Below are positions 426 through 10,749 of a stretch of DNA of 35,606 bases, one piece after another. Made by a program: the position numbers and the translations under genes. Source of the DNA: Candidatus Yonathbacteria bacterium RIFCSPHIGHO2_02_FULL_44_14 (GTDB taxonomy: Bacteria > Patescibacteriota > Minisyncoccia > Phycocordibacterales > UBA1550); NCBI GenBank assembly GCA_001823535.1, contig MHUT01000018.1, forward strand, positions 1 through 35,606, given 5' to 3'. The notes beneath the pieces were generated by a model that saw nothing but the letters and a program-made list of their open reading frames with translations, did no database searches and was not told where the DNA came from. Positions within the stretch are counted from its first letter, which is position 1. Every line of letters begins with the position of its first letter.

Positions 426-450
426 ATGCGCCCATAGCTGTTTTGGTAGA
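426..450 (+). pseudogene. tRNA-Lys 5'-half fragment
   Basis: ATGCGCCCATAGCT is identical to the sequence at the start of the intact tRNA-Lys, and GGTAGA of the D-arm also matches (about 21 of 25 positions). The sequence diverges at once after the D-arm and has no anticodon arm, so it is a tRNA remnant and not a working gene. Confidence 0.7.
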
Positions 451-492
451 TATAGAAGATTTACCACGATGGTCATTAGCACGGAGTATTAT

Positions 493-565
493 GCGCCCAT
501 AGCTCAGTTGGTAGAGCAGCTCGCTCTTAACGAGACGGTCGTAGGTTCGAATCCTACTGGGCGCA
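493..565 (+). tRNA. tRNA-Lys (CUU)
   Basis: Acceptor GCGCCCA pairs with TGGGCGC. The D-arm is AGCTCAGTTGGTAGAGC, the anticodon loop CTCTTAA gives CUU, and the T-arm is GTAGGTTCGAATCCTAC. CCA is not encoded. It is flanked by its own fragments (5' half at 426-450, 3' half at 713-732, inverted 3' half at 613-636). Confidence 0.95.
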
Positions 566-567
566 CA

Positions 568-609
568 ATAACAAAAAATAAAGGGTATCTCCCCTGTCTT
601 TTTTGTTAT
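568..609 (+). terminator. Terminator after tRNA-Lys
   Basis: Arms ATAACAAAAAA (568-578) and TTTTTTGTTAT (599-609), with an inner AGGG/CCCT pairing and a U-run. It sits inside the larger inverted repeat formed by the tRNA 3' end and its inverted copy. Confidence 0.75.
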
Positions 610-612
610 CAA

Positions 613-636
613 TGTGTGCTCAGTAGGATACGAACC
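613..636 (-). repeat. Inverted copy of the tRNA-Lys 3' end
   Basis: TGTGTGCTCAGTAGGATACG plus AACC matches the reverse complement of tRNA-Lys positions 544-567 at 21 of 24 positions. Two of the three differences are C-to-T and would still allow G-U pairing in a transcript reading through from the tRNA. Confidence 0.85.
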
Positions 637-645
637 GAAGGCCCA

Positions 646-687
646 CCATTTTGGCGATGAGAGTATCCTCGAATCGCTACAAAATGG
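646..687. repeat. Cruciform-forming inverted repeat in tRNA spacer
   Basis: CCATTTTG (646-653) pairs with CAAAATGG (680-687), and GCGAT (654-658) with ATCGC (673-677), leaving a 2-nt bulge and a 14-nt loop. There is no T-run, so it is unlikely to be a terminator. Confidence 0.7.
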
Positions 688-712
688 ATGGTCTCGACTG
701 CAAGGAGAGAGG

Positions 713-732
713 CGAATCCTACTGGGCGCACA
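713..732 (+). repeat. Direct copy of the tRNA-Lys 3' end
   Basis: CGAATCCTACTGGGCGCACA is identical over 20 nt to tRNA-Lys positions 548-567, which cover half the T-arm, the acceptor and two flanking bases. Direct repeats of a tRNA 3' end are what site-specific integration would leave (attL/attR), but only about 145 bp separates the copies and no integrase is present. It may instead remain from a tandem tRNA duplication. Confidence 0.85.
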
Positions 733-9959: not shown

Positions 9960-10589
9960 TTAAGCTGACTTGAGAATCACCACCCCGCCCTCCTTATCTT
10001 CGAGGTCTTTCTTTTTGAATGTAAACTTTTCCATTGTTTCGGCATTCTCGCCAGACTCTTTGACAAATGTCTCGAGGCTTCCTTTTGTGTGCTCATAGTC
10101 CATGGGGATGACAACCTTTGCGTCTACTGCAAGGGTTAGCTTGTACGCATCGGGGGCAGAGAGTGTGTCTCCCCCGCCAATAGGCGCAAACAGGACATCG
10201 ATTTCTCCTAGACCTTCTTTGACTTCGCGCGAGAGTGCGTCTACAGACGAGAGTGATCCCAAAAAGCAAAGGTTGATACCCTCGAACATTACCGAGAAAA
10301 CAGTGTTTATCTTTTTCTCTTTGTCGTATGTTGTGTCGGTACCGAAACCTTTAATAAAAATTCCTCCTACTTCATACTCGCCCGGCCCAGAAATAACAAA
10401 CGGCTGACGCTCACCATAGGCGCACTGATCTGCGCCATTGAAATCTGGATGACGAAGTGACGAGAGGACAATGTCCGCCCCAAAGCGCGACCCTTTTTCT
10501 TTTGAGTCTTTGCCGATGGGGTTGTAGGCGATGGTGCGGTCGCCGAGCTGAATCTTGAAATACTGCTTTCCGTAATATGTGACAATCAT
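9960..10589 (-). CDS. Metallo-beta-lactamase-fold protein with degenerate metal site (COG2220/UlaG-like)
   Basis: The 209-aa product resembles the short Zn-dependent hydrolase-like proteins of the UlaG/COG2220 group: N-terminal YYGKQYFKIQLGDRTIAYNP, an ISGPGEYEVGGIFIKG segment, and CFLGSLSS where the fold normally has a His motif. The usual HxHxDH metal motif is replaced by SSLRHPDFN around residues 43-51, with one His, so metal binding and hydrolysis may be lost. This may be a structural or regulatory relative. A divergent promoter pair lies directly upstream, and the -10 box ends 10 nt before the ATG, so the mRNA is leaderless or nearly so. Confidence 0.78.
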   Translation of the reverse strand: MIVTYYGKQYFKIQLGDRTIAYNPIGKDSKEKGSRFGADIVLSSLRHPDFNGADQCAYGERQPFVISGPGEYEVGGIFIKGFGTDTTYDKEKKINTVFSVMFEGINLCFLGSLSSVDALSREVKEGLGEIDVLFAPIGGGDTLSAPDAYKLTLAVDAKVVIPMDYEHTKGSLETFVKESGENAETMEKFTFKKKDLEDKEGGVVILKSA

Positions 10590-10599
10590 GATAAAACGC

Positions 10600-10632
10600 A
10601 GTATAGCAAATTTTAAGCCTGCTTGCTATACT
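10600..10632. promoter_or_regulatory. Divergent, mirror-image extended -10 promoters
   Basis: TGCTATACT is present on both strands: minus strand 10600-10608 reading toward the MBL-fold gene, plus strand 10624-10632 reading toward the small ORF and rpsA. The region forms an imperfect inverted repeat AGTATAGCAA / TTGCTATACT. Both lack a clear -35, as extended -10 promoters can. Confidence 0.7.
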
Positions 10633-10749
10633 ATTGTTAGTTTCAACCACGGGAAAGGCAGGTGATCCAGTCCTTGTTCGACCCTCGAGCTGCCGTGAGG
10701 TAACCTTGAGAAAGCACGCTATCCAAACTGTACTTTTTAGGAGGATATA

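Follow-up and report, generated by a model that had tools for sequence, protein, structure and literature searches.

The window analysed here, 35,606 nucleotides of contig MHUT01000018.1 from Candidatus Yonathbacteria bacterium RIFCSPHIGHO2_02_FULL_44_14, starts with tRNA genes that ARAGORN places in the order tRNA-Cys, Leu(UAA), Lys(CUU), Leu(UAG) and Leu(CAG). How did the third of these genes come to be surrounded by partial copies of its own ends, one of them inverted? A sequence-only reading had described four pieces around tRNA-Lys(CUU), and all four are present: a copy of the 5′ end (426-450, identical to 491-515 at 22 of 25 positions), the gene itself, an inverted copy of the 3′ end matching at 21 of 24 positions and a direct copy matching at 21 of 21. 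It had ascribed them to a single process acting at tRNA ends, with an inserting REP-like element or a tRNA-associated RNA as the agent. We compared the locus with others in the window genome (G000; 757 kb in 22 contigs) and in its relatives.

Layout of the tRNA-Leu and tRNA-Lys loci

We use X for a tRNA 3′ end and its direct copy, X′ for the inverted copy, and body for the conserved middle part; all features given below lie on the forward strand. The first 3′ module belongs to tRNA-Leu(UAA) (125-206; ARAGORN, Rfam RF00005). Its spacer is a perfect 21-bp terminator-type hairpin (205-254, inverted repeat I3), followed by X′ ending in the T-loop (256-274, repeat analysis), a body of family A (275-370; match to model R2 at 272-371, 64.1 bits) and X (371-382, repeat D5). 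The layout at tRNA-Lys matches that of this neighbour, as had been noted.

tRNA-Lys(CUU) is intact (493-566; ARAGORN, RF00005 72.1 bits) and carries three inserted modules, two downstream in tandem and a mirror-image 5′ module upstream. The downstream order is X, terminator hairpin, X′, body, X, repeated once with a different body. In the first module the spacer (567-612) holds a terminator-type hairpin (568-585/592-609, inverted repeat I5) that is absent from the empty site in the relatives G013 and G003. It is followed by X′ (613-636; 21/24, repeat analysis and direct reading), a body of family B (637-709; profile match 632-709, E 7.6e-25) and X (713-733, repeat D3), all 21 nucleotides of which are identical to 548-568. 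Body B is also found at Lys(UUU), Asn and Arg(GCG) of the same genome. The second, weaker module (734-889) had been missed. It consists of a hairpin spacer with a short inverted arm, TTGTGCG (734-776, by direct reading, the hairpin also being detected separately), a body of family A (777-879; R2 match 774-879, 65.4 bits) and a short right arm, ACACGCAA (880-889, direct reading). Upstream of the gene, what had been taken for a loose fragment is a complete 5′ module (426/428-492, repeat D2), present in G003 and absent from G013. Its parts are a copy of the tRNA-Lys 5′ end (428-439), a body termed D and new upstream sequence adjoining the gene, with the junction in the D-loop. When folded as single-stranded DNA, the tRNA end, spacer and X′ together were far more stable than shuffled sequences at both loci (z = -10.1 for Lys and -14.6 for Leu).

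The arrangement recurs at tRNA genes and a few other genes

The proposal of one process at tRNA ends was supported, and the arrangement recurs at many tRNA genes of this genome and its relatives. About half of the tRNA genes of G000, in the 36 tRNA neighbourhoods taken, have a downstream module; a separate tally gave 18 downstream modules, some of which belong to the following tRNA. The order of parts is constant (X, then a spacer, in most cases a terminator-type hairpin, then X′, body and X), and three body families, A, B and C, were distinguished. On direct reading, both junctions of the body in 3′ modules fall within the T-loop. Partial copies of the 5′ end were found upstream of 21 of 109 tRNAs. 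These are mostly mirror-image 5′ modules, in which a copy of the tRNA 5′ end is followed by a body and then by new sequence adjoining the gene, the junction lying in the D-loop.

Within the order, 44 of 61 genomes contain bodies, among them all 16 of the genus, and two of the three families are also found in other classes of Patescibacteria. A tRNA gene lies upstream of the body, on the same strand and within 600 nt, in 74 of 95 cases (106 of 137 in a larger set). A scan of 84,980 species genomes for the exact C pattern returned 32 stretches, titled as Parcubacteria-type lineages, Patescibacteria or unclassified bacteria; the one exception, in a Thermoplasmatales coding region, is a chance match. 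In a phylum-wide set of 287 genomes, covariance models detected family C in 21 genomes and family A in 27. Among the C loci fetched from this survey, 17 of 20 had a tRNA and most showed the zigzag order of parts; all seven A loci fetched from other surveyed genomes were at tRNAs. The genomes are mostly metagenome assemblies, and the limits of body families within the arms may be off by a few bases. The pattern is unlikely to be an artefact of assembly, because it recurs in dozens of independent assemblies, near-complete ones included.

Hosts are not restricted to tRNA genes. We take the hosts at further loci to be tmRNA (L125, L139, L141, L145), the 3′ end of rpsI (L088, L130, L158) and the 5′ end of a glycosyltransferase gene (L083, L119, L129, L143, L159, L163), with the 5′ end of dnaX (L269) and the 3′ end of another gene (L084, L270) as probable hosts; gene names are our reading of the translated sequence. 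At rpsI, the glycosyltransferase gene and tmRNA, the arms are copied from the respective host. The earlier suggestion that tRNA 3′ ends are used holds, but not as a restriction, since tRNA 5′ ends, tmRNA, rpsI and a few protein genes are used as well.

Modules arise by insertion

Comparison of relatives demonstrated that modules arise by insertion, the unit being present or absent at the same site. At the Lys locus, G013 has no module: tRNA-Lys is separated from tRNA-Leu(UAG) by a 10-nt gap, Lys-AGGGCGAAGT-Leu(UAG). G003 differs from G013 by an 82-nt 5′ module, which separates the gene from the old promoter-like region. Of the 3′ modules, G004 carries only the first, with body B, and G000 has body B followed by body A. 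At Val(GAC), G013 is again empty, reading tRNA-AACTTTTT-ATG, and G000 has a terminator, X′, body A and X before the same gene (76% identical between the two over 779 nt). At Gly(UCC), the unit in G008 sits between the tRNA and a terminator that in G013 directly follows the tRNA. The 3′ unit starts at the tRNA 3′ end, and the copied stretch runs from the T-loop to that end. Every insertion at a 3′ end adds a unit made up of a terminator hairpin, X′, a structured body some 75-130 nt long, and X once more in direct orientation.

These filled and empty sites at Lys(CUU), Val(GAC) and Gly(UCC) also indicate that the unit carries its own spacer hairpin. Snap-back at the host's own terminator was rejected as the source of the spacer: there is no terminator at the empty sites of Lys(CUU) and Val(GAC), and at Gly(UCC) the native terminator is retained on the downstream side of the unit. 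In the window the insertions (567-910) separate the Lys-Leu(UAG) pair, which in G003 and G013, with 10 nt between the genes, is probably a single transcript.

The modules might instead be decayed tandem duplicates of tRNA genes, their middles replaced by unrelated sequence. Pieces resembling tRNA are indeed present in 5′ modules, for example what is left of an anticodon arm in Ile(GAU), and units in tandem occur. Decay of a tandem duplicate, however, does not produce an inverted copy or explain why different tRNAs and rpsI share bodies, and the empty sites indicate insertion in one step. As a full explanation this is the least probable of those weighed here.

Arms follow the target, and bodies move

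In three genomes with nearly all tRNAs, each arm was compared with about 36 tRNA ends. The module's own tRNA was the best match of X′ in 22 of 39 modules and of X in 26 of 39, against about 1 expected by chance, so the match between arm and own tRNA is not accidental. The nearest relative of a body tended to lie in the same genome (A, 15 of 61 against 4.6 expected, p 0.0006; C, 5 of 35 against 0.94, p 0.007). At the same tRNA the excess was smaller for A (9 cases, 2.4 expected) and absent for C (1 case, 1.6 expected), and some of these same-tRNA pairs were likely inherited at the same locus. As the arms fit their own tRNA best and the bodies resemble bodies at other tRNAs of the same genome, bodies therefore move and arms are made anew from the target.

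Two of the three differences in the inverted copy at Lys keep G-U pairing, and the sequence-only reading had seen in this mild support for pairing of the tRNA 3′ end with X′ at the RNA level, allowing that substitutions which break pairs as often as they keep them would speak against it. In 68 modules covering 677 sites, 41 single changes break a pair and 19 keep G-U. Only two sites were changed in both arms, both of them unpaired, with 1.4 expected if the arms vary independently. No compensatory change between X and X′ was found. On the terms set by the sequence-only reading itself, RNA-level pairing of the arms is thus rejected, and the arms are copies and not a maintained stem.

Strong covariation sits instead in conserved helices of the body. 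Pairs changed on both sides numbered six in C and eight in A; none or 2 of 500 shuffles scored as high, and slid controls were far lower. Over the body helices, two-sided changes were found in 288 cells and one-sided changes in 45. An earlier, small count of G-T against A-C pairs (9:8) had at first suggested DNA. In the larger model-fitted alignments the ratio was 45:16, compared with 76:13 in tRNA stems (p = 0.09).

This covariation, the excess of G-T over A-C pairs and the position of bodies on the tRNA strand would suit a structured RNA useful to the host, in which X′ and X form an acceptor/T-stem-like helix with the tRNA 3′ end, the transcript is processed like a tRNA and the arms are under selection. 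The arms, however, show no compensatory change, the presence of a module at a given tRNA turns over within one genus, and many hosts are not tRNAs. G-T pairs are also rarer in bodies than in tRNA stems (2.1% against 3.6%), and no body matched any Rfam family at gathering score. We therefore regard a host-useful RNA as distinctly unlikely.

Another rival explanation is a site-specific cassette that a tyrosine recombinase integrates at tRNA ends, X being the attachment core, much as phages or ICEs integrate. The 3′ ends of tRNA, tmRNA and rpsI genes are classic integrase sites, and the insert is bracketed by direct repeats of the tRNA 3′ end. Such an element would nevertheless bring a fixed attachment sequence defining one target; here the arms fit each target, the bodies do not cluster by tRNA, and the same bodies are found at many targets. 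The 5′ modules and the 5′ site in the glycosyltransferase gene do not suit a recombinase cassette, and no A or C body was found in phage records or, as an exact pattern, in IMG/VR. A recombinase cassette is accordingly highly improbable. Carriage by phages or plasmids was likewise rejected: exact A or C patterns had no match in IMG/VR, neither A nor C matched phage records, and A had no match in plasmid records.

Candidate enzymes

Single-strand transposition would place the junctions where they are seen, in hairpin loops. A REP-like element mobilised by a RAYT (Y1 HUH) transposase could insert the body hairpin as single-stranded DNA into the T- or D-loop, leaving host repair to make the inverted copy. 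Of six Y1 matches in G000, five are RAYT-like proteins, and two copies scanned against NCBIfam matched REP_Tyr_transpos below the cut-off. A RAYT gene is present in G000 and in most relatives. Across 41 genomes, 25 had modules and Y1, 6 modules only, 2 Y1 only and 8 neither, an association confounded by kinship and assembly gaps. Against this, six module-bearing genomes have no Y1 match, and the idea that bodies are part of RAYT elements was rejected: none of A, B or C was found around 20 Y1 loci at E below 0.9, the RAYT genes being bordered by short palindromes of their own instead. We consider RAYT-driven insertion unlikely.

The palindromes of RAYT-like Y1 genes lie mostly on both sides of the gene and differ from gene to gene, for example AAAGGACCGTCCTTT, GGAAGTCAGACTTCC and CACTTGGAGG..CCTCCAAGTG (L165-L169, L171, L173, L176, L178, L182-L184). 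Two other sources of activity were set aside. tRNA-primed or target-primed reverse transcription is disfavoured, as reverse transcriptase PF00078 is absent from G000, from G001, a genome of the same genus, and from G013, all of them module-rich. A casposase was rejected because G000 has no Cas1; one was found in 1 of 41 relatives.

A template-switching model

Our preferred reading, to which we give a probability of about one half, is that the modules are short non-coding mobile DNA hairpins, inserted at the ends of tRNA genes and of a small number of other conserved genes, which would spread by template switching without an enzyme. X, spacer and X′ form one continuous palindrome, with return to the same template, a feature of template switching. 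The path X, spacer, X′, body, X would be a zigzag left by a double turn-around of DNA synthesis. The nascent strand may turn back at the spacer hairpin and copy X backwards as far as the T-loop. It could next switch to a body elsewhere in the genome via T-loop sequence common to all tRNAs, and return to the original tRNA through the same short homology. T-loop and D-loop, shared by all tRNAs, would be possible landing homology for a body copied from another tRNA. The 5′ modules would be the mirror image, with promoter-like sequence as the spacer.

The terminator or promoter within the unit probably survives as a shield of the intact tRNA from its own antisense copy, keeping expression. The hairpin spacer probably keeps RNA polymerase out of X′ and so prevents pairing of X′ with the tRNA.

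Inverted copies of this sort are a product of DNA template switching, which also explains paired changes without G-U intermediates (PMC8794818). As such a pattern has been reported for it (PMC8794818), we count the 288 two-sided against 45 one-sided body changes in its favour. Several points weigh on the other side. Template switching is normally local, and copying a body of about 100 nt from elsewhere would need a long-range switch or an enzyme. The model leaves the spacer unexplained, because the spacers at two filled sites were not copied from the empty-site sequence. The rpsI and glycosyltransferase sites have no T-loop homology of the kind proposed for the second switch, which counts against the model. 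An enzyme may be involved, since many of these genomes have RAYT-type Y1 transposases, whose presence roughly follows that of modules.

A broader proposal is somewhat more tentative: that these are phylum-wide selfish DNA without fixed ends, perhaps without an enzyme of their own, in which conserved hairpin bodies spread by template switching in replication and rebuild terminal inverted repeats from each target, T-loop and D-loop serving as universal landing homology.

Comparison with known elements

The earlier suggestion of an inserting REP-like element was supported, the modules being inserting elements that resemble REPs or MITEs. REP and BIME sequences with RAYT (TnpA_REP) are likewise short, non-coding, structured, multicopy and intergenic, in genomes with RAYT genes; in contrast, the bodies here are 75-130 nt long and are not found next to RAYT genes. 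REPs are not known to sit at gene ends between arms copied from the target, and no tRNA-gene targeting was found in PMC3733652. MITEs and Rickettsia palindromic elements share small size, lack of an open reading frame, inverted-repeat ends and a direct target repeat around the insert. The modules are similarly short, non-coding and dispersed, with direct repeats of 12-21 nt, but the end repeats of MITEs are fixed and the element's own (PMC10969869), whereas here the arms are copied from each local target.

Quasipalindrome template-switch mutations resemble the modules in their inverted local copies, palindrome extension and paired double changes without G-U intermediates (PMC8794818); such mutations are local, whereas in the modules many sites have received a conserved body some 100 nt long. 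Casposons (family 2) and tRNA-targeting integrases insert at tRNA 3′ ends and duplicate that end, by 14-15 bp for a casposase (PMC6614799), but casposons are large and coding, and have TIRs and a Cas1 of their own. TRE5/TRE3, Skipper-2 and Ty elements of amoebae and yeast insert close upstream or downstream of tRNA genes (PMC5911963). These retrotransposons, however, use Pol III factors, and their insertions lie outside the gene; G000 lacks a reverse transcriptase.

We know of no mobile element that leaves one forward and one reversed copy of the target gene end at each insertion, and no description of the arrangement was found in the open-licence literature. The elements lack the defining feature of each known kind of mobile element that was tested. 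Mobile elements are classed by their fixed ends and their enzyme. An element whose ends are written afresh from each target, and for which no enzyme is evident, would spread in a different manner. The elements crowd the tRNA genes of one of the largest bacterial radiations, the tiny and mostly uncultured Patescibacteria; by breaking up tRNA operons and supplying new terminators and promoters, they shape how tRNAs are expressed in otherwise minimal genomes. In addition, they provide a natural record in which the role of template switching in the evolution of bacterial genomes could be tested.

Variant and nested modules

Besides duplicating the tRNA 5′ end, 5′ modules bring new promoter-like sequence (window 428-492; L057, L064, L099, L121, L131), and at L057 (Asn) and L131 (Cys) the whole 5′ unit, promoter included, is in tandem repeat. 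At least one further body family with the same zigzag arms, GAAAACGA.TACGGG..GGGCCGAGAAATTTTT..TTCTTGGC, occurs in G001 at tRNA-Val(GAC), Val(UAC) and Ser(GGA) (L229 and neighbours). At tRNA-Gln(CUG) of G000 (L052, C18:43613-43684), the last 26 nt are perfectly repeated 43 nt downstream, with neither an inverted copy nor a known body. Bodies also contain nested insertions of more hairpin elements, often in the hairpin loop, such as CCGATTT..AAATCGCAGTGTCC (L049 at about 10564-10730; L073; L128; L151). Inside several module loops (L049, L061, L071, L239) lies a genus-level repeat, GAATCAGCTGATTC, together with GTCTTGGAC or its complement.
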